Notes under the pieces: generated by a model | Seen by the model: the letters and a program-made list of their open reading frames with translations, nothing else | Database searches by the model: none | Told to the model about the DNA's origin: nothing | Shown: one piece after another, positions 2,417 to 55,871 of the stretch | Position numbering within the stretch: position 1 is the first letter of the stretch | How the letters are laid out: each line of letters starts with the position of its first letter | Translations under genes and position numbers: made by a program | NCBI GenBank assembly: GCA_017553505.1 | Contig: JAFZLD010000006.1 | Coordinates: forward strand, 124,001 to 188,000 | From: Lachnospiraceae bacterium | Lineage (GTDB): Bacteria; Bacillota; Clostridia; Lachnospirales; Lachnospiraceae | Direction: 5' to 3' | Length of the DNA stretch: 64,000 nucleotides

Positions 2417-2421
2417 TAAAA

Positions 2422-2447: not shown

Positions 2448-2450
2448 ATT

Positions 2451-3149: not shown

Positions 3150-3778
3150 GCTTCCTTCTTAAATGTGGGACATATATCTTTCAGATAGCATTCCGAGCAT
3201 TTGGGTCTCGGAGCCTTGCAAATGGTGCGGCCGAGGGCGATGAACCAATGATTGATGTAAAGCCAGTAATCTCGGTCCACGACCTTCATGAGGTCAAACT
3301 CTGCTTTAACGGGGTCGGATGTATCTACGAGCCCCAACTTATTAGATATGCGCAATACGTGAGTGTCGACAACTACCGACGGTTCCCTGAAAATGTTGCC
3401 GCGGATAACGTTGGCGGTCTTGCGTCCTACGCCCGGAAGACTTGTAAGTGACTCAATGTCTGAAGGCACTTCGCCTCCGAAACGGTCACACAGAGCGCGT
3501 GAGCAGCCTATGATGTTCTTGGCCTTATTATGATAAAAGCCCACCGAATGGATAATATCCTCAAGTTCGAGAAGATCGGCTGAAGCCAAATCCGCTACTG
3601 TAGGATATCTCTTAAACAATACCTTGGTGACTTCATTGACTCTCGCATCGGTACATTGGGCGCTCATGATGGTGGCAACAAGAAGCTGCCACGCATCATC
3701 GTGATTTAAGTAACATGTCAGATCACGCCCATATTCTTTTTCCATTCGGTCAAAGATTTCTTGTATATATTTCTTCAT
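3146..3778 (-). CDS. nth: Endonuclease III (DNA glycosylase/AP lyase)
   Basis: A 210-residue base-excision repair enzyme that removes oxidised pyrimidines and cuts the abasic site. The helix-hairpin-helix LPGVGRKTA carries catalytic Lys120, Asp138 follows in VDTHV, and the C-terminus has the C-x6-C-x2-C-x5-C pattern that holds a [4Fe-4S] cluster (CKAPRPKCSECYLKDIC). Length and residue numbering match the E. coli enzyme. It starts two bases after the GH3 beta-glucosidase stop and overlaps the exonuclease gene, so a repair pair is appended to a sugar operon. Confidence 0.96.
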   Translation of the reverse strand: MKKYIQEIFDRMEKEYGRDLTCYLNHDDAWQLLVATIMSAQCTDARVNEVTKVLFKRYPTVADLASADLLELEDIIHSVGFYHNKAKNIIGCSRALCDRFGGEVPSDIESLTSLPGVGRKTANVIRGNIFREPSVVVDTHVLRISNKLGLVDTSDPVKAEFDLMKVVDRDYWLYINHWFIALGRTICKAPRPKCSECYLKDICPTFKKEA

Positions 3779-3780
3779 TA

Positions 3781-6204: not shown

Positions 6205-6234
6205 ACTGTTTTCTCCCAATACTGTTTATAAAGT

Positions 6235-7401: not shown

Positions 7402-7424
7402 AACCTTCTCTTCTTCTCCTTTAT

Positions 7425-9581: not shown

Positions 9582-9622
9582 AAAGATACCTTCCTTTACT
9601 TGTAATCCCCCGAAATGTATCG

Positions 9623-10633: not shown

Positions 10634-10681
10634 ACCTTATACCCTGTACCTTTCATTTTCTCATATTCCCCTTACATTCCT

Positions 10682-10710
10682 ATTATACGGTCAGAATCCG
10701 CGCACCTCAA
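10682..10710 (-). promoter_or_regulatory. Putative sigma-A promoter of the DUF4003-kinase-galK run
   Basis: On the minus strand a -35 TTGAGG (10710-10705) is followed after 17 bases by a perfect -10 TATAAT (10687-10682). The -35 lies inside the 3' end of the SGNH gene. There is no terminator between that gene and DUF4003, so read-through is also possible. Confidence 0.55.
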
Positions 10711-12106: not shown

Positions 12107-12119
12107 ACTGTCCCGTTAT

Positions 12120-13604: not shown

Positions 13605-13627
13605 CGTTACGTTCCTTTCTTCTAACA

Positions 13628-13656
13628 ATTTTAGTATATGAAACGACGCTTCGCAA
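13628..13656 (-). promoter_or_regulatory. Putative promoter of MBOAT operon
   Basis: Minus-strand -35 TTGCGA (13656-13651), 17-base spacer, -10 TAAAAT (13633-13628), about 25 bases before the MBOAT start. Confidence 0.5.
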
Positions 13657-13681
13657 CTTAAAAAAGTCGCAATTCTGTAAT

Positions 13682-13712
13682 AAAAAAGCTCTGAAATCAT
13701 TGACTTCAGAGC
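13682..13712 (-). terminator. Terminator of tRNA-Gly
   Basis: Minus-strand hairpin with perfect eight-base arms GCTCTGAA/TTCAGAGC (13712-13688) followed by six T. It starts nine bases after the tRNA 3' end. Confidence 0.85.
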
Positions 13713-13720
13713 ATGATAAA

Positions 13721-13791
13721 AGCGGGTGATGGGAATCGAACCCACGTATCCAGCTTGGAAGGCTGGTGTTCTACCATTGAACTACACCCGC
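13721..13791 (-). tRNA. tRNA-Gly (anticodon TCC)
   Basis: The 71-base minus-strand sequence folds as a cloverleaf: acceptor arms GCGGGTG/CACCCGC, T-loop GGTTCGATTCC, and an anticodon stem CCAGC/GCTGG enclosing TTCCAAG-type loop bases with anticodon TCC. The discriminator base is T and the 3' CCA is not encoded, consistent with the cca gene in this window. It is a single gene with its own promoter and terminator, reading GGA and possibly GGG codons. Confidence 0.97.
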
Positions 13792-39047: not shown

Positions 39048-40532
39048 TTATTTGAAAGGGTTCTCTGTAGGATAAGGTAAGGAAGCAGGCTGGTTGTAGT
39101 TGATGTCTTCCATGGGAACGCCAAGGTACTTGAATACTTCGAAGAGAGCCTTGCCGTAGTGACCGAATGCAACGGCACCGTGGTGAGGATAGTTCTTCTG
39201 GATGAGTACGTGACGATAGAAGCGACCCATTTCCTTGATAGCGAATACGCCGATACCACCGAAGGACTTGGTAGCTACGGGAAGTACTTCACCTTCTGCA
39301 ACGTATGCACGAATCTTGCAGTCTGCAGTAGACTGTAAACGATAGAATGTGATGTTGCCGGGAGCGATGTCGCCTTCAAGAGTACCGTTGGTAACTTCGA
39401 TAGGAAGTGCTCTAGCCATGATCTTCTGGTACTTCATTTCAAAAGCTGCAAGCTTCTTGGTGCAGGTGTTACCGCAGTGGAAGCCCATGAATGTATCAGT
39501 GAACTTGTAATCGAATTTGCCTTCGATAGATTCCTTGTACATATCCTTGGGAACGGAGTTGTTAATGTCAAGAAGAGTAACAACGTCGTCAGATACGCAA
39601 GTACCGATGAACTCGGATAAGCATCCGTAAATATCTACTTCACAAGATACGGGAATACCCATACCGGTAAGACGGCTGTTTACGTAGCAAGGTACGAAAC
39701 CGAACTGAGTCTGGAATGCGGGCCAGCACTTACCTGCGATTGCAACGTACTTACGATATCCTCTGTGAGCCTCAACCCAGTCAAGAAGAGTAAGTTCGTA
39801 CTGAGCAAGCTTAGCAAGAACTTCGGGCTTCTTGTTGCCGGCGCCGAGTTCTTCTTCCATTTCCTTAACCTTAGCGGGGATTCTGGAATCGCCTGCGTGC
39901 TTGTTGAAGGATTCAAAAAGGTCAAGCTCGGAGTTCTCTTCGATTTCTACGCCGAGGTTGTAAAGCTGCTGGATAGGAGCGTTACAAGCAAGGAAGTTAA
40001 GAGGTCTGGGGCCGAAAGAAATAATCTTTAACTCGGAAAGACCCTTGATAGCGCGTGCTACGGGGATGAAGTCGTGAATCATATCAGCGCAGTCCTCAGC
40101 ATCGCCAACGGGATACTCAGGGATGTAAGCGCCAACGCTTCTAAGCTTTAAGTTGTAGCTTGCGTTAAGCATACCGCAGTAAGCATCTCCACGGCCGTCC
40201 ATTAAGTCAGCCTGGCTTTCTTCTGCTGCTGCACAGAACATCTTAGGTCCATCGAAGTGCTTAGCAAGTAATGTCTCGGAAATTTCGGGACCGAAGTTAC
40301 CAAGGTATACGCAAAGAGCGTTACAACCTGCTTTCTTAATATCTTCAAGAGCCTGAACCATGTGGATCTCGCTCTCAACGATACATACAGGACACTCGTA
40401 AATGTCAGATGCGTCGTATTTCTTCTTGTAGGCGTCAACTAAAGCTTTACGTCTGTTAACGGAAAGGCTTTCAGGGAAACAGTCACGGCTGACTGCAACA
40501 ATACCTAACTTAATCTTGGGAATGTTATTCAT
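39048..40532 (-). CDS. L-fucose/L-arabinose isomerase-family protein
   Basis: A 494-residue cytoplasmic protein of the fucose/arabinose isomerase fold, which interconverts aldose and ketose sugars using a metal ion. The N-terminal Rossmann-like part carries LCVYLGNFGPE, and the last third has the conserved FHCGNT and HHGAVAFGHYGKALFEV, the latter with candidate metal histidines. The family covers several sugars, so the substrate is open. It is the third gene of an operon with an FGGY kinase and a DUF4867 protein. Confidence 0.82.
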   Translation of the reverse strand: MNNIPKIKLGIVAVSRDCFPESLSVNRRKALVDAYKKKYDASDIYECPVCIVESEIHMVQALEDIKKAGCNALCVYLGNFGPEISETLLAKHFDGPKMFCAAAEESQADLMDGRGDAYCGMLNASYNLKLRSVGAYIPEYPVGDAEDCADMIHDFIPVARAIKGLSELKIISFGPRPLNFLACNAPIQQLYNLGVEIEENSELDLFESFNKHAGDSRIPAKVKEMEEELGAGNKKPEVLAKLAQYELTLLDWVEAHRGYRKYVAIAGKCWPAFQTQFGFVPCYVNSRLTGMGIPVSCEVDIYGCLSEFIGTCVSDDVVTLLDINNSVPKDMYKESIEGKFDYKFTDTFMGFHCGNTCTKKLAAFEMKYQKIMARALPIEVTNGTLEGDIAPGNITFYRLQSTADCKIRAYVAEGEVLPVATKSFGGIGVFAIKEMGRFYRHVLIQKNYPHHGAVAFGHYGKALFEVFKYLGVPMEDINYNQPASLPYPTENPFK

Positions 40533-40582
40533 TTAATAGTCCTCCTTAAATATTTAAATGCGGAAAAATTTCCACATAATAC

Positions 40583-41227
40583 TTACTCGTTAATGTTTAA
40601 GTTCTTACCTTTAAGTCCTAAGAAAGAACCTGCGTCCAACCCACCTTCTTTGTGACCGATAAGCCACTTGTTAACTGCAGTGATGAGAGCATCCTCACTG
40701 GGAGCGGTACCGTCAGCGTTAACCTTAGCGTGAGGTGTGGTAAGAGGTAAGTTCGTTCCCTTGGGAAGAACGATGGATACCTGGAATCCCTTTCCGTCTA
40801 CGCCGCAGGGAGCATAGTGAAGTGTTGTAGCATATACTTCAACAGCGGTTCCTGCAGGTACAAAGAAAGCTTTAACCTTGGAAGTATCAAAGGTGAAATC
40901 CTTCTCAACTTCTCTCTTAAGACCGAGCATTAAAATTGCGTCGGTAGCTGCAACGTTAATCTCTGAATCTCTGTGATATTCAAGAGCGTTCAACATACAG
41001 TTGTGTCCGTTGCAGTAACCAATCTGTACGGGCATCTCGCCGTATACTACGTTAGAGATTTCCTTGGCAACAGAAAGGCTTTCGAGTTCCTTGATGCCGG
41101 GTTCATAAGCTACGCCTTCGGGAACGGGAGTCTTCTTCATAGCCTCAACAAGCTCGGAGAAGTCCACGTTGTCAACTACACGGCCGTATTCATTGAATTC
41201 AGCATCGTTAACAGACCAAATCTTCAT
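40583..41227 (-). CDS. DUF4867 family protein, cupin-like
   Basis: A 214-residue soluble protein that I match to DUF4867. Candidate metal or substrate ligands cluster as in cupins: His75 (NGHN), Glu83 and His85 (LEYHRDSE), Glu89, Glu130 and His137 (TTLHYAP), within a beta-rich middle part (about 60-160). It lies between the kinase (12 bases) and the isomerase (50 bases), so it should act in the same sugar pathway, perhaps as a mutarotase, epimerase or second isomerase. That role is inference from position and residues only. Confidence 0.7.
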   Translation of the reverse strand: MKIWSVNDAEFNEYGRVVDNVDFSELVEAMKKTPVPEGVAYEPGIKELESLSVAKEISNVVYGEMPVQIGYCNGHNCMLNALEYHRDSEINVAATDAILMLGLKREVEKDFTFDTSKVKAFFVPAGTAVEVYATTLHYAPCGVDGKGFQVSIVLPKGTNLPLTTPHAKVNADGTAPSEDALITAVNKWLIGHKEGGLDAGSFLGLKGKNLNINE

Positions 41228-41238
41228 ATCTTTTCTCC

Positions 41239-42708
41239 TTATTTGATAATTTCAAAAACAGGCTTTAAGGCAGGGTAAATCTCCTTAAACTGTTTATATC
41301 TCTCATCATACTTAGCTGCAAGCTCGGGATCGGGCTCTACAGTATCTACGACATGAACGAACTTGGAAGCGATTTCCTCAACTGATGAATACTCACCTGC
41401 CGCAACAGCCGCAAGCATTGCGCCACCCATGCTGGGACCTTCTTCGCTCTCGATAACGTCAACCTTAATGTTAAGAATGTTGGCAATCATCTTCTTCCAA
41501 AGAGGGCTCTTGGCACCGCCGCCGCAGATCTTGGTACGCTCAATCTTGATACCGAGGGACTTGGCAACTTCAAAGGAATCACGAAGCGCAAAAGCAACAC
41601 CTTCCAAAACTGCCTGAGTCATATCTTCTCTTGTGGTATCCATTGTCATACCTACAAAAGTACCTCTTGCATTGGGGTTGTTGTGAGGAGAACGCTCACC
41701 CATAAGGTAAGGAAGGAAGTAAACGTGGTTCTCACCAAGCTTGGTGATACCCTTCTGCTCAGCGCCGTAATCCTTGGTGCCGATGATTTCGTCCATCCAC
41801 CACTTGTTACAGGAAGCTGCGGAAAGCATACATCCCATAAGGTGATAAGTTCCGTCTGCGTGTGCAAAAGAATGTAATGCGTTGTTCTTGTCAACGCCGA
41901 AGTTCTTGGATGAAATAAAGATGGTTCCGCTGGTACCGAGGGAGATGTTACATCTTCCGTCGCCAACAGTACCGGTTCCGACTGCTGCTGCCGCATTGTC
42001 GCCTGCACCTGCAGCTACGATTGTATCCTCAGGGAATCCAAGCTCCTTGGCAATAGCGGGAAGAAGTGTTCCAACCTTCTCATAGCTCTCGTAAATCTTG
42101 GCAAGCCATGATTCCTTAACGGAACAGATTTCACACATTTCCTTGCTCCATGTACGGTTCTTAACGTCAAAAAGAAGCATACCGGAAGCATCTGATACGT
42201 CTGTGCAATGAACACCTGTAAGCTTGTAAGCAAGATAATCCTTGGGAAGCATCATCTTGTCAATCTTGGCGAAATTCTCGGGCTCTTTGTTCTTAACCCA
42301 TAATACCTTGGGTGCGGTAAAGCCGGTAAAAGAAATATTGGCTGTATACTGAGAAAGCTTGTCCTTACCGATTACATTGTTAAGATAGTCGCACTCTTCG
42401 GTGGTACGTCCGTCATTCCAAAGAATAGCGGGACGAATTACGTTGTCATCCTTATCAAGGATTACGAGACCATGCATCTGGCCGCCGAAGCTGATACCGC
42501 GAACCTTAGACTTGTCGATGTCCTTGGTAAGCTCCTTAAGACCTGCCATGCTCTGCTCATACCAATCTTCGGGCTTCTGTTCACTCCAGCCGGGATTGGG
42601 GAAATATAACGGATATTCCTTAGAAACTACGTTACAAATTTTACCTTCGGAATCCATAAGTAATAACTTAACTGCGGATGTTCCGAGGTCGATGCCGATG
42701 TAATACAT
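41239..42708 (-). CDS. FGGY-family sugar kinase, xylulokinase-like
   Basis: A 489-residue two-domain kinase. GIDLGTSAVKLLL at the N-terminus binds phosphate, and GGGAKSPLWKKMIANIL near residue 390 is the second FGGY signature; the spacing and EWQ-type substrate loops are most like XylB. It phosphorylates a ketose made by the isomerase of this operon. First gene of the operon, AGAGGTAAGAG-type site upstream. The exact sugar (xylulose, fuculose or other) is unresolved. Confidence 0.88.
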   Translation of the reverse strand: MYYIGIDLGTSAVKLLLMDSEGKICNVVSKEYPLYFPNPGWSEQKPEDWYEQSMAGLKELTKDIDKSKVRGISFGGQMHGLVILDKDDNVIRPAILWNDGRTTEECDYLNNVIGKDKLSQYTANISFTGFTAPKVLWVKNKEPENFAKIDKMMLPKDYLAYKLTGVHCTDVSDASGMLLFDVKNRTWSKEMCEICSVKESWLAKIYESYEKVGTLLPAIAKELGFPEDTIVAAGAGDNAAAAVGTGTVGDGRCNISLGTSGTIFISSKNFGVDKNNALHSFAHADGTYHLMGCMLSAASCNKWWMDEIIGTKDYGAEQKGITKLGENHVYFLPYLMGERSPHNNPNARGTFVGMTMDTTREDMTQAVLEGVAFALRDSFEVAKSLGIKIERTKICGGGAKSPLWKKMIANILNIKVDVIESEEGPSMGGAMLAAVAAGEYSSVEEIASKFVHVVDTVEPDPELAAKYDERYKQFKEIYPALKPVFEIIK

Positions 42709-42880: not shown

Positions 42881-45148
42881 TTACTGTTTTTCGTTGATGT
42901 ATATATTAGCACGGCTCTGGATAATCTTAGCAACCTCTTCTGCGGTCTTCTGACCCTGGAAGAAAGGCTCCGCATCCTCGGTAATAATGTTCTGAATATC
43001 CTCGCTGTAGCTGCTGATTCTGTCTACAGACTTTACAAATTCCTTAATACCTGCTATCTCAGCTTCGGAGAGGGGTTCGATTACAATTTCCTGACCGTTG
43101 ATGTAGTAAGTATCGTCATATTCAACCTTTTGATTGTTTTCATCCATGTAGTAAGGCTTTTCCGTAGACTGCTTGGCATTCTCATCAAACTGAGCCATGG
43201 AAGCGGGGATTCCCCAGGTAAGCTTCTGCTGGTATTCGTTCGAGTAATAGTACTTCACAAAATCCCATGCCGCATCCTTATAAGCACTCTTGGCCGAAAT
43301 AGCGTAAGAAGCCATAGGATTGATGGAAGAACCGTTTCCTTCCTTGCAAGGATATCCGATAAAGGTTACCGCTTCACCGAAAGTACCTCTGATAAGGTAC
43401 TTAAGCTCTCTTATATCGTAAATAGATGTCGGCGAAAGAACAACTTTATTCTCTCTGTAAGCGGATTCGGCCGACTCATAATCGTAATTCTCCCAATATT
43501 CGTTAGTGTACATTTCTTCAGACTTGGGGAATTCCTTTAAGTACTCAAGAAGTGAAACAAATTCGGGAGTGTCGAAATAACACTTTCCTTTACCGAAATC
43601 CATGTAGTCACTTACGTTAACACTTAAGAAGTTGTAAAGCATATTCTCTCTTGTAGCGTCCGCAAACATGCTCATGCCGGGCTGAAGGGAATTCTTAAAC
43701 TGTAAGAACTCTTCCATTGTCCAGCTGTTTCTGTCGCCGAGAACAGATTTCTTACCTGCTACGGTGCTGATTGTAAAACTCGGTACTATCTCGTAAATCT
43801 TATCATTGTAGGAACTAGCCTTGATAAGGTTGGGGAAAATATCATCAAAATTAATATCGGGGTCATTCTTGATATAATCGGTCAAATCAGCGAAAAGACC
43901 CTTGGAAATATAGTTGTGAATAATGGAAGGATCGTTGGCAATCACAATATCGGGAGCCTGACCGGAAGCAACATCGCTGTTAAACTTCTTAGTACCTGCC
44001 ATCCAGTCTTCTTCGGTATCGTACTGAGAGTAGTCGGTAATTACTATTCTGTACTCGCTGCTTGTTTTGTTAAAAGAAATAACTCTCTTCTTAACATCGG
44101 TATCTACCCAAAGGCAACCGAGAGACAATACCTTCTTATCAACAACGTCCTCGGGAGCAACCTTGGTATACTTACCGTATCTTGCAACATCTCTTCCGTC
44201 GGTGTCATCGTCGTAGTAGTTGTAGAAACCGTAAATTGTATTATCATCCGCAAGATAAATAGTGTTGAATCCCGAAGTAACAATATCCGAATTTACGTAG
44301 TTAAGTAAAGCTCTGGGCGCAGTATCACCGATATTGTATACGTATACCTGAGTGCTGTCGGTCAAAATAAAGTCATATTTGCCACAGCCGTCACGCATAC
44401 CGAAATTGGCCATGCTGAAAGGAATCTGAATCTCTTCGCCACGTTCAAATTTGTTCACATCATATCTGTAAAGCTTGTTGCCGCCTTCTTCCCATGCAAG
44501 CACTGCCACCGAACCGTCTTTGATTTTGTAGAAAGTACCGTCAAAGCTGTCATATGCTTTGCTTCTTACTTCCTTTAAATCCTTGTCGAGTACGATGAAC
44601 TTATCTCCGGTAACCAACAATACATTACCGTCCGAAAGAGTAATAATATCTCTGGTCCATTCGGTCTGATACTTTTCCTTTAAGTTAACGGAAGCCTTCT
44701 CTGCACCCGAAGCATCGCATCTCTTAAGGTAATAGCTGTTCTCGTAAATATAATTATCGGGATCTGAATAATCTTCAAAGCTCTCCGAATAAAGAAGGTA
44801 CACATCTCCTTCTGCAGAAACCGCCATTCTTTCTATCCAGGAGCCTTCTTTGTCAAGCTTGTTGGAAGTCATTCCCGAGCCGTCATAATTGACAGTACCC
44901 CAAACGGAGCTTGCCATACCGTCGGTCTGGTTGTATTTATAGCCGAAGTAATATACCTTATCAGCTGAAAAATAGCTGTTATACACGCTTAAATCATCGG
45001 AAAACTTGATATTAAGCATTTCCTCTTTATAAACTGTGTTCTTGTCTATGGTAGCTGTCTGCTTCCCCTTCTTTTGGCACGCTGCCAAAGGAAGAATCAT
45101 GACAAAAATCAGCACCATGCAAAGCGCAAATCTTTTAATTGATTTCAT
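42881..45148 (-). CDS. Solute-binding lipoprotein with N-terminal beta-propeller-like module (copy 2)
   Basis: A 755-residue lipoprotein with signal peptide and lipobox LAAC (Cys24). Residues about 45-335 show repeated blade-like strands ending in Asp-Gly turns (SAEGDVYLLY, LSDGNVLLVT, KIKDGSVAVLAW, LADDNTIYGFY), as in beta-propellers. From about 338 a type 1 extracellular sugar-binding domain follows, opening SLGCLWVDTDVKKRVISFN and containing GQAPDIVIAND. Normal sugar-binding proteins are about 430 residues. It overlaps the MacB-like gene by 14 bases and is last in the operon; a longer paralogue is first. Confidence 0.82.
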   Translation of the reverse strand: MKSIKRFALCMVLIFVMILPLAACQKKGKQTATIDKNTVYKEEMLNIKFSDDLSVYNSYFSADKVYYFGYKYNQTDGMASSVWGTVNYDGSGMTSNKLDKEGSWIERMAVSAEGDVYLLYSESFEDYSDPDNYIYENSYYLKRCDASGAEKASVNLKEKYQTEWTRDIITLSDGNVLLVTGDKFIVLDKDLKEVRSKAYDSFDGTFYKIKDGSVAVLAWEEGGNKLYRYDVNKFERGEEIQIPFSMANFGMRDGCGKYDFILTDSTQVYVYNIGDTAPRALLNYVNSDIVTSGFNTIYLADDNTIYGFYNYYDDDTDGRDVARYGKYTKVAPEDVVDKKVLSLGCLWVDTDVKKRVISFNKTSSEYRIVITDYSQYDTEEDWMAGTKKFNSDVASGQAPDIVIANDPSIIHNYISKGLFADLTDYIKNDPDINFDDIFPNLIKASSYNDKIYEIVPSFTISTVAGKKSVLGDRNSWTMEEFLQFKNSLQPGMSMFADATRENMLYNFLSVNVSDYMDFGKGKCYFDTPEFVSLLEYLKEFPKSEEMYTNEYWENYDYESAESAYRENKVVLSPTSIYDIRELKYLIRGTFGEAVTFIGYPCKEGNGSSINPMASYAISAKSAYKDAAWDFVKYYYSNEYQQKLTWGIPASMAQFDENAKQSTEKPYYMDENNQKVEYDDTYYINGQEIVIEPLSEAEIAGIKEFVKSVDRISSYSEDIQNIITEDAEPFFQGQKTAEEVAKIIQSRANIYINEKQ

Positions 45149-46226
45149 AAATCTCCAAATCTCCTTCCTTCTTCCTCTTCTTGTCCCTATAATCCTCTAT
45201 CCTGTCCTCGAAGAAGTTTTTCACATCTCCACGGTGGATTGTACGCTTTTTCCACATACGAATCAATATAATTATCACAAGTACAATCGGGTACGCAAAA
45301 AGAATAGTTGCAAGAAGTGCCACCGGAGTAAGATAATCCTCCATGCCTCTTGCCATATTCTCCCAGTAAGGATAAACAACTCCCTTAGTGTTCATGGCCC
45401 ATGTACCGTACTTGGGAACTCTCATAAGAAGTTTGGTCCATTTAAATCTGCTTGTATTTTCAACCAGTTCAAAACGCTTCTCATCAATGTTTTTAAGCGC
45501 TTCACCGATTGATGTCATCGCATACGAAGTAATAGGATTGGGCATAAGTGCTTCGTAAGTATTGATATATGAAGCCACACCGTTAGCCTCAAGTGCTTCG
45601 TATGACATAAAAATCGTAGGCTCGTTGTTGCCCGCAAGCTTATCAAGACGGCTCTCGTCCTTCTTAATTACTCCGGATACGACATGCGTTACTCCGCCGA
45701 TTTCAACCACCATTCCGACACAGTCGCTGGAACCGAAAAGATTCGCGGCGGTTTCTTCGTCCAGGACCACAAGGTCCTTCATAAGATAGCTGTCATCAAA
45801 ATACGAACCGCTCACAAGTCTTATAGGATGAAAGAGAAAGAAATCTCCTCCCACACCGATAACCTTAACTTCGGCCGAATTCTTCTTAAAAGCAATCTTT
45901 GCTTTACCGTTGGCTGAGTATGCATATACCCAGGATCTTACGCCCTCTTCTTCTTTGGTAAGTGAGTCCTGTCTGAGCTTTTCGTCAATCTTGTATTTAA
46001 GTTCAGTGACATTTTCCTTTTTAAATCCCGAAAGTTCGGAAAAGAAAACGCTTACCTCGGCAAAATCCTTCTTATCTCCCCACCTGCTTGCAATTTGCTG
46101 GTCTTTTAAGGAAGCCGAAGAATGTACTCCTATGGCTGTCAGAACAAATCCGACAACCAAACAGATACCCGCAGCAATAAGAAGCCTTATATAAACTTTT
46201 GTAAAAACAGTTTTTAAGTACTCCAT
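45135..46226 (-). CDS. MacB/FtsX-like extracytoplasmic protein, two membrane helices, no ATPase
   Basis: A 363-residue protein with a membrane helix at each end (about 12-34 and 304-326) and about 260 residues outside, resembling the periplasmic core domain of MacB/FtsX-type permeases (VIGVGGDFFLFHPIRLVSGSYF, then LDEETAANLFG). True MacB proteins have four helices; two are missing. No ATPase gene adjoins. The C-terminal tail is basic and cytoplasmic. ATG 46226 follows GAGG by six bases. It lies between the adaptor and the second binding protein. Confidence 0.72.
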   Translation of the reverse strand: MEYLKTVFTKVYIRLLIAAGICLVVGFVLTAIGVHSSASLKDQQIASRWGDKKDFAEVSVFFSELSGFKKENVTELKYKIDEKLRQDSLTKEEEGVRSWVYAYSANGKAKIAFKKNSAEVKVIGVGGDFFLFHPIRLVSGSYFDDSYLMKDLVVLDEETAANLFGSSDCVGMVVEIGGVTHVVSGVIKKDESRLDKLAGNNEPTIFMSYEALEANGVASYINTYEALMPNPITSYAMTSIGEALKNIDEKRFELVENTSRFKWTKLLMRVPKYGTWAMNTKGVVYPYWENMARGMEDYLTPVALLATILFAYPIVLVIIILIRMWKKRTIHRGDVKNFFEDRIEDYRDKKRKKEGDLEIYEIN

Positions 46227-46251
46227 TACAATCCTCAATATTTAATAATCA

Positions 46252-47877
46252 TCACTGCTTAAGTCTTACAAGCATTCCGTCCGAAAGAGGCTTCGAGAAT
46301 GTTGTAATTACGGAATCCCAGCCTTCAAGCGGTCCGCTTACAGCGCTTCTTGTATCATCCTCGGCAATAACCGTAACGTTAACTCTTTCAACCGAATATC
46401 TTGTTCCGAGCGGTGAAGGCTTGGAAACAAGACGATAAACGTACTTACCGTTGTTGTCTTCTCTGATTGCACTGTTGGGAACAACAGTATCGTAGTTGGA
46501 ACTCTTTCTGCTTGTGATGGTCAAAGAAAGCTGTGTACCGCTTGTAACGCTTCCTTCAAGGTCAAATTCTACAATCTTATTCTTACCCTGACTTTCTTTA
46601 TCAGGCTTAATATTGCTTACCTTAGCGTGAACATCCGAATAGAACCATGAGTTACCTACATCGGCCTCATCGCCTTTATTAATCATAGCTGCCTGCTCAT
46701 TGGTAACTGTCATGGAAAGTGTGAAGCCCTTGCCCGCAACCTGAATTGTGGCAACAGTTTCTTCAGCTGTAGTAGTCTCGCCCGCAACTCTGGACAAAGA
46801 AAGAATTGTTCCGGAAACAGGAGCTACCACTTCATTGGTACCCTGATCGCCCTTAAGCTTTTCAATCTCGTCTTCCTTGGCGCGGATAGCGGAAAGTGAA
46901 GCTTCAAGGTCTATCTGGTTGGTAATACCGGTAACAAGCTCAGTGAGAGCCGATTCAGCTGCAGCTTTGTTGGCCTTAGCTGTTTCAAGCTGATTGGTTA
47001 ACTCAGTTTTCTTATTATCAATGACCTGTTTATTTGCTTCTTTGATGTATGTGTAGTTGTTGTACTGATCTTCGGCTATGTTATAAAGATTTACCTTTTC
47101 GTCATAATTCTTCTGAGCTGCATTCACAGCACTCTGAGCACTTGCCTTAGCAGCAACTTCCGCTTCATTGGCAGACGGATCGTTTTCTGAGACGCCGGCA
47201 TACTTGGCTAATTCTTCCTGTGCTGCTGTCAAATCTCTAAGTGCCGATTCTTTATTTCTTGCTCTTCCATCTTTCTCAATTGTCCAAGCGGTAAGAGTCT
47301 TATCTGCTTCCGTGTATGCGTTATACTCGGGGATATCTCCTGCTGTGTTGTATGTCCAACGATTCAACTCTTTCTCAAGGTTCTCTACTTCTTTCTCATA
47401 CTGCTCAACCTTCTTCTGAGCCGCATCAATCTTGGCCTGCTTCTGCTCGATGGTACCGGTTCTGCCGCTTTCGACTGCTTTTCTGTCGCTGGTGGAAACC
47501 TGTCCGGTTATAAGAGCCTTTTCGTAAGTAGCCTGCAAAGTATCAAGCTCTAACTGAGCCTTCTTAAGTTCCTCGGAATCGCCTTCCTCTAAAACGTAGA
47601 TAACCTGGCCCTTTTCTATCTCATCACCGACTCTGACCTTAACGCTGTCGATTTTTCTTGACTGCTTAAGTACCACGCTGTAAGGGTCCTGAGAGGCAAC
47701 CGTTCCCGTTCCTCTGACTTTGCTGCTCAAAGTATCGGAAGTTACGTATTGAACCGCCACTTCAGGCAACGAATAGTTCCTTATTGTGTTGGCAAAAAAC
47801 GTAAGCACCAACATAATCGAAAGAAAGATTATTGCGATTGTCTTAATCCATTCTTTTCTTGATTTTTTGTCCTGCAT
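46252..47877 (-). CDS. HlyD/MFP-type adaptor protein
   Basis: A 541-residue protein with one N-terminal membrane helix (about 12-31) and an extracellular remainder. Two half-lipoyl motifs (about 60-95, VRVGDEIEKGQVIYVLEEG; about 372-400, VVAPVSGTILSL) flank a very long coiled coil (about 95-365) rich in Ala, Glu, Lys and Gln; beta-barrel parts follow. This is the membrane fusion/adaptor layout used by export pumps. In this operon it sits 13 bases after a sugar permease gene and before a MacB-like protein, an uncommon context. Confidence 0.88.
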   Translation of the reverse strand: MQDKKSRKEWIKTIAIIFLSIMLVLTFFANTIRNYSLPEVAVQYVTSDTLSSKVRGTGTVASQDPYSVVLKQSRKIDSVKVRVGDEIEKGQVIYVLEEGDSEELKKAQLELDTLQATYEKALITGQVSTSDRKAVESGRTGTIEQKQAKIDAAQKKVEQYEKEVENLEKELNRWTYNTAGDIPEYNAYTEADKTLTAWTIEKDGRARNKESALRDLTAAQEELAKYAGVSENDPSANEAEVAAKASAQSAVNAAQKNYDEKVNLYNIAEDQYNNYTYIKEANKQVIDNKKTELTNQLETAKANKAAAESALTELVTGITNQIDLEASLSAIRAKEDEIEKLKGDQGTNEVVAPVSGTILSLSRVAGETTTAEETVATIQVAGKGFTLSMTVTNEQAAMINKGDEADVGNSWFYSDVHAKVSNIKPDKESQGKNKIVEFDLEGSVTSGTQLSLTITSRKSSNYDTVVPNSAIREDNNGKYVYRLVSKPSPLGTRYSVERVNVTVIAEDDTRSAVSGPLEGWDSVITTFSKPLSDGMLVRLKQ

Positions 47878-47890
47878 TGTAATGTCTCCT

Positions 47891-48805
47891 TTAACCCTTA
47901 ATACCGCCTTGGTACATAATACCCTCTACCAGATAATCTTCTCCGTACAAGAACACCAAAAGTCCCGGTATCATATATATTGTGGCAACCGCGAAGGCCA
48001 GTCCCGTCTCACCCGAGTTAATCTGCGAAAGAAAGACCGACAACGGATGCATTTCTTCATCCGAAAGCAAAATGAGCGGCTGCTCAACCATGTTCCAATA
48101 ATCAATAAACACAAGTATCGCTACCGAATACAAACAACCCTTACAAAGCGGTACGCAAATCTTTCTGAAAATCTGCCATTCGCCCGCTCCGTCAATCTGA
48201 GCCGCTTCAATATACGATGTAGGGATACGTCTCATAAACTTCGTAAGCAAATATACGGCAAAAGGCGACGCAATGCCCGGAAGCCAGATAGCCCATCTCG
48301 TATCGATAAGCGACAACCACTTGGATACCAGATAGTTAGGAACCAGCGTAACCTGATAGGGCATCAGCATAAGGATAATGTAGGAAAAGAAAATGATTTC
48401 TTTTAACTTACCCTTGGCTCTCGTAAATCCGTATGATGCAAACAGCGCAACTGCAAGCTGAAATACAACTATAGGCGCAACAAGAATAACCGAGTTCCAG
48501 AATTTGAAAAGGTACTCGGGGCTTTTAAGCAACACTGTAATATACTGCTTAAAAGAAACCATATCCGGTAAGAATTTAAGGTGTACAACATCCGAAATAA
48601 ATACCTTACCGCCCTTCTCACTACGAGCAAAGACAGCGCCGTAATTGGCGTTAATCTCTGTCTGCGACATGAAGGAATTGGTTATCGTAAGTATGATTGG
48701 TGTTAAGAAAATAATAGCAAATACTGCGGCTACGATAGTAAAAATTGCAGCCTGTACAAGTTGCCTTCTGCGTTTGGCCGATAAGGATGAGTGTCTTTTC
48801 ATCAT
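47891..48805 (-). CDS. CUT1 carbohydrate ABC permease, MalG-like
   Basis: A 304-residue inner-membrane permease with six helices. The EAA loop reads EAAQIDGAGEWQIFRKI, the docking site for an MsmX/MalK-type ATPase. Its start overlaps the stop of the MalF-like gene by four bases (ATGA), so the two form a heterodimer made together. No ATPase gene is in the cluster; a shared MsmX-type ATPase elsewhere is the usual arrangement in Firmicutes. A cytoplasmic loop near 50-70 is longer than usual. Confidence 0.93.
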   Translation of the reverse strand: MMKRHSSLSAKRRRQLVQAAIFTIVAAVFAIIFLTPIILTITNSFMSQTEINANYGAVFARSEKGGKVFISDVVHLKFLPDMVSFKQYITVLLKSPEYLFKFWNSVILVAPIVVFQLAVALFASYGFTRAKGKLKEIIFFSYIILMLMPYQVTLVPNYLVSKWLSLIDTRWAIWLPGIASPFAVYLLTKFMRRIPTSYIEAAQIDGAGEWQIFRKICVPLCKGCLYSVAILVFIDYWNMVEQPLILLSDEEMHPLSVFLSQINSGETGLAFAVATIYMIPGLLVFLYGEDYLVEGIMYQGGIKG

Positions 48806-49713
48806 TCTTCCACATCCTTTCCGAAATGATTTTCAACGATGAACAAAGCACCGATGATAATAATCATTGCTATCGACATGATAATCGCAGCCGATGACAA
48901 CTTCTGATAGTCAAGCGACTGGAATGTATTGTTCATAAAGTGCTGTAACATATATAAAGGATCGTACGGGTATCCGCCTGTGAGAAGATAAATCTCGCGG
49001 AATACCTTAAACGAGTTAATAAGCGAAAGAATAGTTACGAACAAAATCGTAGGAGAAAGGTATCTAATCTTGATGTTCCAGAATATCTGCCAGGCATTGG
49101 CACTCTCCATCTGAGCAACTTCAATAATATCCTTCGGTATGGATTCAAGCGCCGACAGAAAAAGAATCATGTTATATCCAAGGTTCTTCCATAAGAAAAG
49201 CAGGATAATAACCACCTGCGCATAATCTGACTTAAGCCAGTCTATCTTAGCTCCTCCAAAGTGCGAAAGAAACTGATTGACAGCTCCGTTCATATCAAAC
49301 ATAACCTGCACGATAAGTACGATTGAAGCAACCGGTACCATCATGGGGGTAAGAAAAGCAGTTCTGAACTGACTTCTGAAAGGAATATTCTTATCAAGCA
49401 TGGCCGCCAGCATCAGCGATAACACAACCGAAAGCGGCACGGCGATAAAAGAAAAATGAAGAGTATTACCGGAGGCTATCTTAAAAGAGCCGTTGTTAAA
49501 TACTCTTACAAAGTTCTCAAAACCCACAAAATTCGCGGTAATCGGGTTGTCGACCATTGAATAGTAGATTACCACGAAGAAGGGAAGTATGAAAAACAGG
49601 AAAACGCCAATGAGGCTCGGAGCCAGGAATAATCCCGCTCCGACCCTCTGACGCATGGTTCGTTTCTTTAATTGACTTTTTTGTTTTTTGGTACTTTCTT
49701 TAGTAACTTTCAT
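48802..49713 (-). CDS. CUT1 carbohydrate ABC permease, MalF-like
   Basis: A 303-residue permease with a basic N-terminus and six membrane helices. The EAA loop is EVAQMESANAWQIFWNI. It is 20 bases after the first solute-binding gene and overlaps the MalG-like gene. Together they form the channel for an oligosaccharide importer. Confidence 0.93.
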   Translation of the reverse strand: MKVTKESTKKQKSQLKKRTMRQRVGAGLFLAPSLIGVFLFFILPFFVVIYYSMVDNPITANFVGFENFVRVFNNGSFKIASGNTLHFSFIAVPLSVVLSLMLAAMLDKNIPFRSQFRTAFLTPMMVPVASIVLIVQVMFDMNGAVNQFLSHFGGAKIDWLKSDYAQVVIILLFLWKNLGYNMILFLSALESIPKDIIEVAQMESANAWQIFWNIKIRYLSPTILFVTILSLINSFKVFREIYLLTGGYPYDPLYMLQHFMNNTFQSLDYQKLSSAAIIMSIAMIIIIGALFIVENHFGKDVEE

Positions 49714-49733
49714 TATAAAACATAACCCGTTGT

Positions 49734-52184
49734 TTATTCATTCTCAGAAAGGTATATCTTTACACGGCTCTGAAGTACCGTAGCTGTTTCCTCGGCAGTC
49801 TTCTGTCCCTCAATGAAGGGCTGAACTTCTTCCATGAAAATCTCGGTAAACTTTTCATCAAGTCTGATTGTATCTTTGGCTTCATTCATCAATCCTTCAA
49901 GAATGTCAGCTTCAGCCTGAGTAGGAATTCCTACATCGATCATGCCGTAATCGGTACCGATGGTGTAGCTGGTGTCCTCTTCTACGACATTTCCGTTTTC
50001 ATCGGTATATGTATCGGGTGTAATCTCATCCTCTATCATATCATAAAATGCCTGCTTACGCACAGGAATTCCGCTTGATGAGTACATCTTATTGCCCTGG
50101 TCTTCCATGTAGAATTTAAGGAATTCAAAGCATCCTTCTTTTTCCGTAGTCTTAGCGGAAATTGCATACATAGAGTTAGGAATAACCTGTACTCTGATGC
50201 CTTTATCGTTGGGAGGTCCGACAATTACAGCATCATCACCCATAATCTGTCTGTACATCCTAAGCGAGCTTAAATCATAGAGATATAACTCACTTAAGAT
50301 AATATCTCCGTTAGCCATCATGCCGTACATATCGTAATTTTCATTATTTATTTCCTTGGGGAACGTGTCCGCAAAGTTCAAAAGGTCGTAGAAATTCTGA
50401 TTACAGAAATCGCAGGTTCCCTTTTCGTAATCCACAAATGTATTAAGCGAATATACTACCATGGTATAAAGTGCGTTTTCCTTGGTTCCTGATGTAAGGA
50501 AAGGAATATCGCTGTACTGCTTTCTTAACTCCACAAGCTCCTGAGGTGTAATGGTGGTCTTACCCTTGAAAATTTCTCCGTTACCGATCATAGCAAGAAG
50601 ACTCACGTGGGAAATAGCAAAATAATCCTTGCCGTTAACCTGGAATATATTAAGAATATTCTCAAAGTAATCGCCTCTGTTTATTGTCTCTTTGTAGAAG
50701 TCGGAAAGGTCTAAGAATGCACCCTTCTGAGCAAGCTTCAAAGCGATGGCATCCGTTGAATCTACGGATACAAGGTCAAATACATTGCCGGCTGCAAGGT
50801 CTGCCTTGAAACGAGCGTACTGCTCCGTGTAGGAGTTCTCGTCATAATCACCGTCATAGTCTATGTACTGCTTAACACGAATTTTGTATTTATCCTGGCT
50901 CTTGTTGAATGCTGAAATCTTGGTTCTTACGTTCCAGTCAAGATATGCGCAGCCGTAAACAAGTTCTGTTTTAGCCTTCTCAGGATCGATTTTTTCTTTG
51001 GATACGGTTACATAGTCATATGTAGTACTTTCGTCGTCGTAATTGGCAGCGATAAAGGAATATGTTCCGTCATCGTTTACCAAAAATGATTCGGTGTCAA
51101 CGTTGAATAAGTCAAGGTTAATCCAATCCCAAAGCTTTTTCTTTTCATTGGTCTTGGTATTGTATTCTGTTACGGCATCGCCGCCTGCCACTACATAAGT
51201 GTCCTCACCGGTCTGATAGATTCTTCCGTTAGATGCCGCAAAGCTAAGGCCATCGGAAAGAGTACCCTGCGCGAAATCAGCCTTCTTACATGCAACTCCG
51301 CTTTCAGCCTGTGACCAGAATGTTACGTAGCAATTGCCTTCTTTGTCTGTGAAAACGCTCTGAATCCAGTTTCCGACTTCGATTTCGCCTTCTTTTTTAC
51401 CGTCTTTGTCAACACTTACGATAGCGGTCTCTTTGCACAAGTACATTCCGCCGTCTTCCTTAAGATAAGCGCGATTTACATATTCATCTTTTGTCACCAA
51501 ATCAGTTGCCGAATATACAAGACTGAGCGAACCGCTATTGTCTCTCTTGCAGACATTGTAATTACGACCGGTCTCTGTATATGTTGCCAAAAGAAAAAGC
51601 ATTGAACCGTCATCATTTACGATAATATCGTCAACGTTCGGACTGCTGTCTCCGACTTCTTCATACATATAGGCATCACTCATATCACCGTCAAGGAGAT
51701 CACCTCTACCTTCTTCTTCCACAACTGTAAGCGTTCCGCCGGTTTCGCCTTCGCTCACATCACCGGTAGTTGCCTCTGTGTCAGTTGCCGGAGTCTCGTC
51801 AGCTGAAGTATCGCTTTCTGCAGGCTCTTCATTAGAGGGTTCGCCTTCAGAAAGGTTGTCTTCGTTCTCGGGTAATATGCTCTTGAAGTCTAACTCAATC
51901 GGATCGTCCGCAAGTGTTTCAAGATCGATTACGTGAAGCTTCTGTGTTCCTCTTAAGTTGTGAACCACATACAATTTACCGTTCTTGGCAATTGCTTTCT
52001 CCACATAACCTTCGGTTCCGATTACATCGGAAATCGACTGGCTCTTGGCTACGAATTCATAACCTTCGCCTGCGCCGTCTATCGGCTCTTTTACTTTCTC
52101 TTCTTTTTTACCGCAGGCAGATAAACTTATTGCCAAAATCATAACCGCCGCGATGGAAACCAATTTAATCAGTTTCGATCTCAT
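49734..52184 (-). CDS. Solute-binding lipoprotein with N-terminal beta-propeller-like module (copy 1)
   Basis: An 816-residue lipoprotein, lipobox LSAC (Cys24). Residues about 45-400 look like a beta-propeller built of strands with DG turns (NDDGSMLFLL, KEDGGMYLC, NDDGTYSFIA), broken by an acidic Glu/Ser/Thr insert at about 105-160. The sugar-binding domain begins about 405 (YGCAYLDWNVRTKISAFNK) and is clearly related to that of copy 2 downstream. First gene of the operon with a strong site (GAGGAGGAG) and a cre-like sequence on its promoter. Confidence 0.83.
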   Translation of the reverse strand: MRSKLIKLVSIAAVMILAISLSACGKKEEKVKEPIDGAGEGYEFVAKSQSISDVIGTEGYVEKAIAKNGKLYVVHNLRGTQKLHVIDLETLADDPIELDFKSILPENEDNLSEGEPSNEEPAESDTSADETPATDTEATTGDVSEGETGGTLTVVEEEGRGDLLDGDMSDAYMYEEVGDSSPNVDDIIVNDDGSMLFLLATYTETGRNYNVCKRDNSGSLSLVYSATDLVTKDEYVNRAYLKEDGGMYLCKETAIVSVDKDGKKEGEIEVGNWIQSVFTDKEGNCYVTFWSQAESGVACKKADFAQGTLSDGLSFAASNGRIYQTGEDTYVVAGGDAVTEYNTKTNEKKKLWDWINLDLFNVDTESFLVNDDGTYSFIAANYDDESTTYDYVTVSKEKIDPEKAKTELVYGCAYLDWNVRTKISAFNKSQDKYKIRVKQYIDYDGDYDENSYTEQYARFKADLAAGNVFDLVSVDSTDAIALKLAQKGAFLDLSDFYKETINRGDYFENILNIFQVNGKDYFAISHVSLLAMIGNGEIFKGKTTITPQELVELRKQYSDIPFLTSGTKENALYTMVVYSLNTFVDYEKGTCDFCNQNFYDLLNFADTFPKEINNENYDMYGMMANGDIILSELYLYDLSSLRMYRQIMGDDAVIVGPPNDKGIRVQVIPNSMYAISAKTTEKEGCFEFLKFYMEDQGNKMYSSSGIPVRKQAFYDMIEDEITPDTYTDENGNVVEEDTSYTIGTDYGMIDVGIPTQAEADILEGLMNEAKDTIRLDEKFTEIFMEEVQPFIEGQKTAEETATVLQSRVKIYLSENE

Positions 52185-52457: not shown

Positions 52458-55400
52458 ATGACAAAAAGTTTATTTAATAACGATTGGCAGTTTTCTGAGT
52501 TTGAACTTAACACTCATTTCGATAAGATGTTTAACTCTACTCTATTAAAGACGACAAATCTTCCTCATGATTACATGATTTGGCATGTAAATGATTTATA
52601 TAAGTCTGAAATCGGTTTTTATCAAAAATCTTTTGATATGTCTGTTGAGCCGGGGCACACGTACATACTGCGCTTTGAAGGCGTCTACATGGATTCCGAG
52701 ATATATCTTAACGGTACAAAGATTTTTGAGTGGAAGTATGGCTACTCGACCTTTGATGTAGATTTAACTTCTTATATTAAAGAAGGAACCAATACCGTCT
52801 GCGTCATTACCACCTACCGAAATCTCAATTCCAGATGGTACTCCGGCGCCGGAATCTACAGAAATGTATGGCTTTATGATTTTGACGAGACTTACATTCC
52901 TTTGGACGGTGTATACCTTAACGCAGTCAAAGAAAACGACGACTTCTTGCTTAATGTTGAGGTTGAAGCGATTTCTTCTCGTGGCGGTGAATTCACTCTT
53001 GAAAATACTCTTATAGATGTTTCGGGCGTTGAGTGCGCTACGGTTTCTTCAACGGTTTCTTTGGCAGGTGCCGTCTCGGTCTGCTCTCAGAGCATGACTG
53101 TTAAAACGCCTACGCTTTGGGATATCGATAATCCTTACTTATATAAAGTACGTACCCGTATCCTTGCCGACAATGTGGTCAAAGAAGAAGTCTATAATAC
53201 CTTAGGCTTCCGAACCATAGAGTTTGACTGCGATAAAGGTTTCTTTTTAAACGGGCGAAATGTAAAGATTCAGGGTGTATGTCAGCATCACGATCTGGGT
53301 GCTCTCGGCGCCGCTATGAATAAGTCCGCTCTTCGCAGGCAGTTTGAGAAGCTTGTTAAGATGGGCGTTAACTCGATTCGTACTTCCCACAATATGCCTG
53401 CGGTTGAAGTTATGGAACTTGCCGATGAAATGGGCATTCTCATCTATTCCGAGAGCTTCGATATGTGGGAACTTCCCAAGACCGAGTTCGACTACGGCAA
53501 TTACTTCCCGACCTGGTGGGACAAGGACGTTACTTCCTGGGTACGCCGCGACAGGAATCATCCGTCGCTGATTATCTGGGGAATCGGTAACGAAATATAC
53601 GATACTCACCTTGAAAGCGGCTTAAAGTGGACGCGCCTCCTTCGCGACAAAGTTCGCGAGCTTGACCATATGCACAACGCTTTTATCGGTATCGGCTCTA
53701 ACTATATTGCCTGGGAAAATGCTCAGAAGTGTTCCGACGAGCTTGAGCTTTCGGGCTACAATTACGGCGAGCGCCTTTATGATGAGCATCATAAGAAATA
53801 TCCTCACTGGCGTATCTTTGGAAGCGAGACCGGTTCGACGGTTCAAAGTCGCGGAATCTACCATTTCCCGCTTGAGACTTCTTTGCTTACTCATATGGAT
53901 GCGCAGTGCTCCTGCCTCGGTAACTGTACTACCAACTGGGGCTCGAAGAGTGTCGATCAGGTAGTGGCCGACCACCGCGACAGAGATTACGTCTTCGGCC
54001 AGTATATCTGGACCGGCTGGGACTATATCGGCGAGCCTACACCATATCACTCCAAGAACTCTTTCTTTGGCCAGATTGATACCGCGGGCTTTGAAAAGGA
54101 TACTTATTATCATTATCAAGCCGAGTGGACCGATTACAAAAAAGCCCCGATGGCACATCTGCTGCCGTACTGGGACTTTAACGAAGGCCAGATTATTGAC
54201 GTTATCGGTTACTCCAACGCTCCTGTGGTTGAGCTGTTATTTAACGGCAAGTCTCTTGGGAGAAAGGACATTGACCACCTTCATGGAAAGAAGCTGTATG
54301 CTCAGTGGAAGGTTCCCTACTCTGTAGGTGAATTGAAGCTTGTGGCTTACGATGAGTGTGGCGCTGTTGTGGCTGAAGATGTTAAGCGTTCTTTCGGCGA
54401 CCCTGCAAAGATTAAGCTTGCCTGTACGGTCAAAGAAATTCCTGCGGATGGCGAAACACTTGCTTTTGTCGAGATTTCTGCAGTGGACAACGCCGGAACA
54501 TTTGTGGCTGATGCCAGAAATCGTGTGAGCGTTTTCGTTTCCGGTCCCGGCAGACTTGTGGGGCTTGATAATGGCGACAGCACAGATTATGAAGAATATA
54601 AGTGTACATCCAGAAGGCTTTTTTCCGGTAAGCTTCTTGCTATTATCGCTCCTACCTTTGAACCCGGAGAGATTAAAGTAACTGTAGAATCTGTCGGACT
54701 GCCTTCAGAAAGTATTATAATCAACAGCGCGGTTACGGAATCACACGCTTCTTGCATGTATTGCGAGGCCAATTTCGCAAGTCCCGCTTCCGATGATATT
54801 CCCGTAAGAAAGATTGAACTTACAAGACAGGGTGGTGATTCTTTAAGCAAGGTGAATCCTACCTCGGCGGTTTCTTATAAGATTTACCCCGAGAATGCAA
54901 CCTACAGAGATATTGAGTTCATTGCTCTTACACCCAATTCTGTCACCGCAGATTACGTAAATGTTGAGGTTAACGACAATGTCGCTCGCATTACTGCTGT
55001 CGGCGACGGTGAATTTACTCTTATGGCTTATTGCTGTAACGATAAGGACCATGCGGAAGTAATATCGACTTTGGACTATAAGATTACAGGACTGGGACAA
55101 GCCAAAAAAGACGCTTACTCCATGATTCCCGGAATCAATTTTGATAAGGCACATTCCGAAGATGTGAGCCTAAGCTTCCTCGGTGGCGCTTTCCTACCTG
55201 CGGGCTCCGACAACATTTCTTACGTTACTTATTCCAAGGTTGATTTCGGAAGTATAGGTTCGGCAGAAGTTCACGTTCCTATATTCAGTTTCAGGGATTC
55301 TTTGAAGCTTGATATTATTGACGGTGATTACGAAACCGGCGAGTGTGTATTTAAAGGTGAATATACCGCGAAGAGCATTTACAACACTTATCAGGAAAAC

Positions 55401-55871
55401 GTGTTTACCCTTTCCAAAACGCTTACCGGCGTTCACACTTTGACATTTGTCTTCCATACGGATGACAGGATTTCCTTCGAAGGTTTTTATTTTACCAAGA
55501 ACTTAAAAGCGTATTCTGTGATACCTGCGGTTTCTTTTTCCAATATTGCCGGTGATACCTATGTTGTGGGTACTGACGCTATCACTTCTATAGGTAACAA
55601 CGTTGCGATAGAGTACGATGATATAGATTTCTCGGAAGGGCTTAGTAAAATAATAATTCGCGGTCGCTCTCACAACGAGAAGACTTCCATACATATTCTT
55701 TACGTGGAGGACGAAGTAGTACGAAGGGACCTTGCAGAGATTCCTTACTCGGAAGATTATGAGACCTTTGAAATAGAGCTTCCCGATATTCGTACGAAGG
55801 GCAAAATTAATCTTGTGTTCCTTCCGGGAAGTAACTTTGATCTTAAAGAATTCAGATTCGTAGCTAAATAG
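52458..55871 (+). CDS. GH2 glycosidase (beta-galactosidase-like) with C-terminal accessory modules
   Basis: An 1137-residue glycoside hydrolase family 2 enzyme. In order: sugar-binding jelly roll (about 10-170), Ig-like domain, TIM barrel with acid/base Glu379 (WGIGNEIYD) and nucleophile Glu457 (FGSETGS), then further beta domains (about 590-800), and two beta-sandwich modules at about 895-1010 and 1015-1135 resembling CBM6-type folds. It has no signal peptide, so it is cytoplasmic despite the binding-like modules. Divergent from the transporter operon, it likely acts on the imported oligosaccharide. Galactosidase, glucuronidase or mannosidase activity cannot be separated by eye. Confidence 0.9.
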   Translation: MTKSLFNNDWQFSEFELNTHFDKMFNSTLLKTTNLPHDYMIWHVNDLYKSEIGFYQKSFDMSVEPGHTYILRFEGVYMDSEIYLNGTKIFEWKYGYSTFDVDLTSYIKEGTNTVCVITTYRNLNSRWYSGAGIYRNVWLYDFDETYIPLDGVYLNAVKENDDFLLNVEVEAISSRGGEFTLENTLIDVSGVECATVSSTVSLAGAVSVCSQSMTVKTPTLWDIDNPYLYKVRTRILADNVVKEEVYNTLGFRTIEFDCDKGFFLNGRNVKIQGVCQHHDLGALGAAMNKSALRRQFEKLVKMGVNSIRTSHNMPAVEVMELADEMGILIYSESFDMWELPKTEFDYGNYFPTWWDKDVTSWVRRDRNHPSLIIWGIGNEIYDTHLESGLKWTRLLRDKVRELDHMHNAFIGIGSNYIAWENAQKCSDELELSGYNYGERLYDEHHKKYPHWRIFGSETGSTVQSRGIYHFPLETSLLTHMDAQCSCLGNCTTNWGSKSVDQVVADHRDRDYVFGQYIWTGWDYIGEPTPYHSKNSFFGQIDTAGFEKDTYYHYQAEWTDYKKAPMAHLLPYWDFNEGQIIDVIGYSNAPVVELLFNGKSLGRKDIDHLHGKKLYAQWKVPYSVGELKLVAYDECGAVVAEDVKRSFGDPAKIKLACTVKEIPADGETLAFVEISAVDNAGTFVADARNRVSVFVSGPGRLVGLDNGDSTDYEEYKCTSRRLFSGKLLAIIAPTFEPGEIKVTVESVGLPSESIIINSAVTESHASCMYCEANFASPASDDIPVRKIELTRQGGDSLSKVNPTSAVSYKIYPENATYRDIEFIALTPNSVTADYVNVEVNDNVARITAVGDGEFTLMAYCCNDKDHAEVISTLDYKITGLGQAKKDAYSMIPGINFDKAHSEDVSLSFLGGAFLPAGSDNISYVTYSKVDFGSIGSAEVHVPIFSFRDSLKLDIIDGDYETGECVFKGEYTAKSIYNTYQENVFTLSKTLTGVHTLTFVFHTDDRISFEGFYFTKNLKAYSVIPAVSFSNIAGDTYVVGTDAITSIGNNVAIEYDDIDFSEGLSKIIIRGRSHNEKTSIHILYVEDEVVRRDLAEIPYSEDYETFEIELPDIRTKGKINLVFLPGSNFDLKEFRFVAK

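Follow-up and report, generated by a model that had tools for sequence, protein, structure and literature searches.

A CUT1-like importer operon of a Lachnospiraceae bacterium with linked genes for an HlyD-type adaptor and a MacB core-domain protein

The stretch of DNA analysed here (the window) comprises 64,000 nucleotides from a Lachnospiraceae bacterium (assembly GCA_017553505.1, contig JAFZLD010000006.1, positions 124,001 to 188,000 of the forward strand). Its minus strand carries, from 52184 to 42881, a tightly packed set of six genes, which encode, in this order, a solute-binding protein (SBP1), a MalF-like and a MalG-like permease, an HlyD-family adaptor, a protein with a MacB periplasmic core and a second solute-binding protein (SBP2). 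The Pfam matches in operon order are SBP_bac_8, BPD_transp_1, BPD_transp_1, HlyD_3/Biotin_lipoyl, MacB_PCD and SBP_bac_1. SBP1 (49734..52184) is an 816-residue lipoprotein with an extra N-terminal part and its solute-binding domain at the C-terminus (about 430–816; SBP_bac_8 at 448–712). It is followed by the permeases of 303 (48802..49713) and 304 residues (47891..48805), both with a loop, recognized by eye, which we take to be of the EAA type; by the 541-residue adaptor (46252..47877), in which RND_mfp remains below the cut-off; by the MacB_PCD protein (45135..46226); and by SBP2 (42881..45148), a lipoprotein of 755 residues with an all-beta part (about 36–345) and a solute-binding domain (338–755) according to the structure model.

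The five junctions measure 20, −4, 13, 25 and −14 bases, the value of 25 assuming that the MacB-like gene starts with the ATG at 46226 (a TTG is also present at 46238). Past SBP2 lies a strong intrinsic terminator on the same strand (42844–42825) with 8 pairs, 6 of them G-C, and then seven T; its stem is the longest among those listed for the minus strand. Since the numbers of terminator-like sites (10 against 7.0) and promoter-like sites (20 against 20.1) in the scan are near those expected from shuffling, the weaker sites carry no meaning. The open reading frames (ORFs) of the window include no ABC ATPase gene within or adjoining the operon. ORFs, Pfam matches and the terminator scan thus bear out a preliminary description of the locus in its gene order and strand, its gaps and overlaps, its terminator at the operon end only and its lack of an ATPase.

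The MacB-like protein consists of a transmembrane helix, the MacB periplasmic core, a conserved YPYWEN segment, a second transmembrane helix and a cytoplasmic tail. The two helices lie at 14–42 and 291–330 in the structure model; in relatives, helices were counted by hydropathy. There was no match to FtsX (PF02687) at E ≤ 0.1. The earlier name "MacB/FtsX-like" therefore holds for the MacB periplasmic core, which is supported by Pfam and by the model fold, and not for an FtsX domain. The protein is also reduced to an external domain and two helices in most near relatives; other lineages of the MalF clade described below have forms with additional membrane helices. Of the parts of a MacAB-type exporter, the operon has the HlyD-family adaptor and the MacB core domain and lacks the four-helix FtsX-type membrane domain and a MacB-type ATPase in the same protein or the next gene. 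The model suggests that the MacB-like protein encoded in the window does not act as a pump alone and that it displays the MacB core outside the membrane on two helices.

The adaptor has an N-terminal hydrophobic stretch, a split lipoyl domain, a coiled-coil span of about 255 residues and C-terminal beta domains. Among HlyD proteins of at least 400 residues, the coiled-coil span varies from 96 to 495 residues in the loci that we call group A (116 proteins) and from 160 to 473 in group B (22 proteins), and the part outside the coiled coil takes up about 280–329 residues (5th–95th percentiles, both groups).

Both solute-binding proteins (SBPs) are unusually long and fall in two separate conserved clades, an upstream type (SBP1) and a downstream type (SBP2). 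Of 49 SBPs of each type, 41 upstream and 30 downstream ones match a simple lipobox pattern. Structure comparison gives a MalE-like fold, and the best solved relative of SBP1, of SBP2 and of the SBP at a relative's locus, L240, is CbpC of Clostridium thermocellum. The N-terminal part of the SBPs has 25 strands and a propeller-like look, with weak matches to PQQ/propeller chains (E 0.04–0.34), and no fold is claimed for it. The operon has two BPD_transp_1 permeases and a MalE-like solute-binding lipoprotein with a visible lipobox, as CUT1 importers (ABC type I) do.

When 299 genomes of the same family were searched with the MacB-like protein, 84 gave E ≤ 0.001, with a clear gap in score: 29 genomes, including its own, reached E ≤ 9e-23, and the best of the others 1.8e-9. 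The order MalF-MalG-HlyD-MacB is kept in all 28 other strong loci (L031–L058), of which L032 and L045 are truncated by contig ends. Five weak matches comprise a divergent version of the module (L062, L063) and three loci without MalF alongside (L059–L061). When named genomes were scanned, the best 80 of 396 relatives came mostly from records of Lachnospiraceae (98% for the nearest, Lachnospiraceae bacterium YSD2013); the four core genes are adjacent in 71 of these 80 (67 by ORF calling, 4 by tblastn); the other nine are cut by contig ends, with the remainder in order. HlyD is broken over two ORFs in L149, and core genes of L170, L183 and L184 that the ORF filter had missed were recovered by tblastn. 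At class level, 70 of 341 genomes gave E ≤ 1e-10, and the module is present in all 20 best-scoring places examined (L099 and L112 are cut). Plasmids gave no match to the MacB-like protein. This was the neighbourhood search proposed in the preliminary description: in the 28 strong family matches and the 80 named loci, the adaptor and MacB-like genes belong with the permeases, and the arrangement it took to mean an accidental link, namely the pair apart from the permeases with an ATPase of its own, is absent. The pair stands apart from the permeases only in distant relatives, namely L250, where an ordinary MacAB set gave a weak HlyD match, and L059–L061, which matched MacB weakly. The proposal of the preliminary description that the pair forms an extracellular scaffold linking two binding proteins to one importer, or senses load, is supported in part, in that the two genes belong to the importer.

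It should be noted that the loci L031–L063, L096–L115 and L116–L195 were gathered through the MacB-like protein, which is therefore present in them by construction; the independent test is the set gathered through MalF from the same draw of 299 genomes, with at most seven MalF or four HlyD candidates scored per genome. Among the matches listed, 57 of 107 MalF matches of at least 145 bits have a listed HlyD just downstream. Examination of 40 of the other 50 revealed an HlyD-type gene by profile in 31, a very weak score in 2 and none in 7, so that HlyD is linked in 88 of 97 examined MalF loci. Three of the seven loci without HlyD nearby are at contig edges (L196, L223, L229) and four are not (L198, L211, L213, L235). 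The two with a very weak score have, after MalG, a gene whose product begins like HlyD and has several hydrophobic segments (L218:8743-9420, L234:8773-9885), possibly a shrunken or fused HlyD-MacB protein. Conversely, six HlyD matches came without a listed MalF: G100 and G147 lie at contig edges, L209 and L210 have another gene order, L249 has a MalF after all and L250 is the MacAB set without MalF. A different order occurs in three loci, which in L209 and L210 reads SBP-X-HlyD-MacB-MalF-MalG-MalK. In the phylum, 14 of 398 genomes matched MalF at E ≤ 1e-65; of 12 further places, L236–L242 have the module (L238 by tblastn) and the five lower-scoring L243–L247 do not.

Joint inheritance is also seen in a MalF tree of 129 tips, for which the named loci were thinned to 15 before the length filter. 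HlyD is linked at 98 of the 104 tips that make up its largest HlyD-rich clade (support 0.915). The six exceptions include L238, where HlyD was found by tblastn, and the contig-edge loci L196, L223 and L229, leaving L211 and L234. Beyond this clade, HlyD is nearby for 1 of 25 tips, and the control within the genome of the window gave 1 of 18 CUT1-like pairs. Six loci were gathered twice; they were removed in counts by source and kept in the counts of adaptor span, two-component genes and ATPase proximity. In the de-duplicated MalF-gathered pairs scoring 250–350, HlyD is present in 29 of 32 and MacB in 19 of 32, so that HlyD is the steadier partner and MacB is sometimes absent.

Ten relatives do have a MalK-type gene in the operon, next to MacB in L237–L242, L114 and L115, and also in L209 and L210. 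Pfam analysis of four of these MalKs revealed OB_MalK in L114, L209, L237 and L240 and TOBE_2 in L209, L237 and L240. Near the 155 pairs of groups A and B (not de-duplicated), MalK-type genes were found in 11 cases and MacB-type ATPases in 8 (L033/L143, which are one locus, L132, L147, L039, L109, L153 and L238). In L033/L143, L132 and L147, the MacB-type ATPase stands with HlyD- and MacB-sized genes of its own after an intact importer module, apparently as a separate MacAB-like set. The genome of the window has an orphan MalK-like ATPase (G000:C9:10323-11414), 59% identical to the MalK of L240, with no PF00528 permease found near it. Because 15 of the 18 other CUT1-like permease pairs of this genome also have no MalK-type neighbour among the genes inspected (such a gene is present at L064, L251 and L254) and this orphan is present, the missing ATPase is not peculiar to the operon. 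In the same genome, locus L267 (G000:C1:26000-43000, at 2327-13736) has a CUT1-like pair with an SBP, followed by two HlyD-type genes, a 932-residue FtsX protein and two MacB-type ATPases, that is, a full exporter set beside an importer.

The operon can be compared with several known systems, in each case from the accessible text of the papers. One ATPase common to several importers is established in other Firmicutes (MsmX/MsmK; PMC7658222), and like those CUT1 sugar importers the operon has SBP, MalF and MalG types without an ATPase gene; unlike them, it adds the HlyD protein and the MacB-core protein, and its two SBPs are long, each with an additional part at the N-terminus. It shares an HlyD-type adaptor and the MacB core fold with the MacAB-TolC, YknWXYZ and Spr0693-0695 pumps (PMC4446572, PMC5768738), but it has two transmembrane helices, no FtsX domain, no MacB-type ATPase and an importer as partner. 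According to what could be consulted of a review, the hairpins of Gram-positive adaptors are often very large, with unclear purpose, and the MacB ATPase is stimulated by the membrane-proximal domain of MacA rather as by SBPs (PMC4446572). The tube formed by a pneumococcal MacA-like protein is hexameric, with a modelled reach of ~154 Å from the membrane (PMC5768738). Transporter C of C. thermocellum resembles the operon in that CbpC is homologous to the SBPs (PMC9601137, PMC8303734, PMC3492117); unlike them, CbpC, numbered to 460, leaves no room for the extra part. A mutant of this transporter grew normally on glucose, cellobiose and Avicel (PMC9601137). The importer–acrA link may have been drawn before without interpretation, since an acrA gene appears, without its cluster being specified, in the Figure 1 legend of that account on the sugar ABC clusters of C. 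thermocellum (PMC9601137); the available portions of the transporter C accounts give acrA no role and name no MacB-like gene (PMC9601137, PMC8303734, PMC3492117). Our literature search, with small coverage of subscription papers, found no paper describing the six-gene set.

Overall, an importer subtype with linked HlyD and MacB genes is well supported. With moderate confidence, we read the operon as a subtype of ABC type I (CUT1-like) importer in which the HlyD adaptor and, in many members, the MacB core are fixed accessory subunits that form an extracellular tower. SBP1 and SBP2, both lipoproteins, would collect the solute, presumably a carbohydrate, and MalF and MalG would carry it into the cell, powered by a MalK-type ATPase acting in trans, for which the orphan ATPase is a candidate. 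The HlyD protein probably docks on the MacB core domain by analogy with MacA on MacB, and its coiled-coil hairpin would stand out towards the wall. Most likely, the tower of adaptor and core keeps the two SBPs next to the permease, or directs them there, by contacts with SBPs and permease; it may also gate the permease and control its ATPase cycle. A more specific form, to which we give only a minor chance, has an HlyD ring or tube on MacB cores around the MalFG entrance, where the SBPs would load at a distance set by the variable hairpin, turning a secretion tube into an uptake tube.

Several findings weigh against the reading of an importer with a tower. Four MalF loci away from contig ends have no HlyD, and in L218 and L234 its score is very weak. 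MacB is missing from many of the pairs scoring 250–350, so its core domain is not required by every member. Eight HlyD forms of 206–253 residues look too short for a hairpin, whose reach is therefore not universal. A Pfam scan of 66 of 186 flanking genes (120–620 residues), all from L125–L195, showed mixed housekeeping families, with no sugar-specific kinase, isomerase or glycoside hydrolase near the wider-group operons among the 25 of 45 families listed, so that the substrate may not be a sugar. CbpC, which among SBPs of solved structure comes nearest, is reported to have a blocked cleft and to have bound none of the sugars with which it was assayed (PMC9601137); according to a review, binding had been reported in earlier work (PMC11212667).

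The chief rival, which we consider possible but rather unlikely, is a sensor, with the HlyD protein and the MacB core reporting SBP load or transport flux to the cell and import being secondary. Bce-type FtsX permeases signal to a histidine kinase, and an OmpR-type regulator and a histidine kinase lie within 8 kb of 15 of 33 group-B and 6 of 122 group-A pairs, compared with 0 of 32 lower-scoring CUT1-like pairs (an example beside the module is L203:12247-14370 of group B; Pfam was run on one such pair). The lack of sugar binding reported in the accessible text on CbpC (PMC9601137) would suit a sensor as well. However, no kinase pair was scored near the operon of the window, most group-A loci are without one, and the retained EAA loops and the MalK genes of some operons fit transport.

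It is improbable that the adaptor and the MacB-like protein work with a MacB/FtsX-type ATPase from another locus and have no more than the operon in common with the importer. The MacB forms with more helices, the ATPase sets after the module in L033/L143, L132 and L147 and the separate HlyD/FtsX/two-ATPase cluster of L267 would agree with such a split exporter, but a MacB-type ATPase would be expected to couple at the FtsX domain and the further helices, which are absent from the form in the window, the ATPase within the module is of MalK type in the ten loci that have one, and inheritance with MalF is near complete in the tree. A degraded MacAB operon was rejected because the pair always follows MalFG in the 28 and 80 loci, where the contig reaches, and the MacB form with two helices is conserved. 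Since export is the process in which HlyD adaptors are otherwise found, the set might export or hand over a product outward through MalFG and an HlyD tube. A Gram-positive MacA-like tube is known (PMC5768738), but the MalE-like folds and the MalE/MalF/MalG/MalK gene sets point inward, making this very unlikely. A chance neighbourhood, for which only the different fold classes speak, is hardly credible and was rejected on the conservation counts, with two gene orders kept across several families, and on the MalF clade test.

HlyD adaptors and MacB core domains usually count as components of exporters. In many Clostridia they are passed on together with an importer, and this holds for different gene orders. 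Should these components work together, adaptor and core domain would make up a general unit outside the cell by which ABC transporters of either direction are controlled or docked. This would give adaptors a testable role in bacteria without an outer membrane and explain why "efflux" gene names turn up inside sugar-importer operons.

Downstream of the operon core, genes for a xylulokinase, a DUF4867 protein and a FucI-like sugar isomerase lie in a row on the minus strand (39048..42708). Xylulokinase and/or isomerase genes adjoin the operon in the window and in eight near relatives among the named loci (L116, L117, L119–L124), and L046 has a weaker XylB-family gene farther away. Upstream of the module in L133 (3-3872), a 1012-residue protein that combines a MacB core and two FtsX stretches stands next to a PHP protein, and genes of similar size occupy this place in several other loci. 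In the window, a divergent gene at 52458–55871 encodes a GH2 enzyme of 1137 residues with a CBM6 match, in which beta-galactosidase GalB-like remains below the cut-off.
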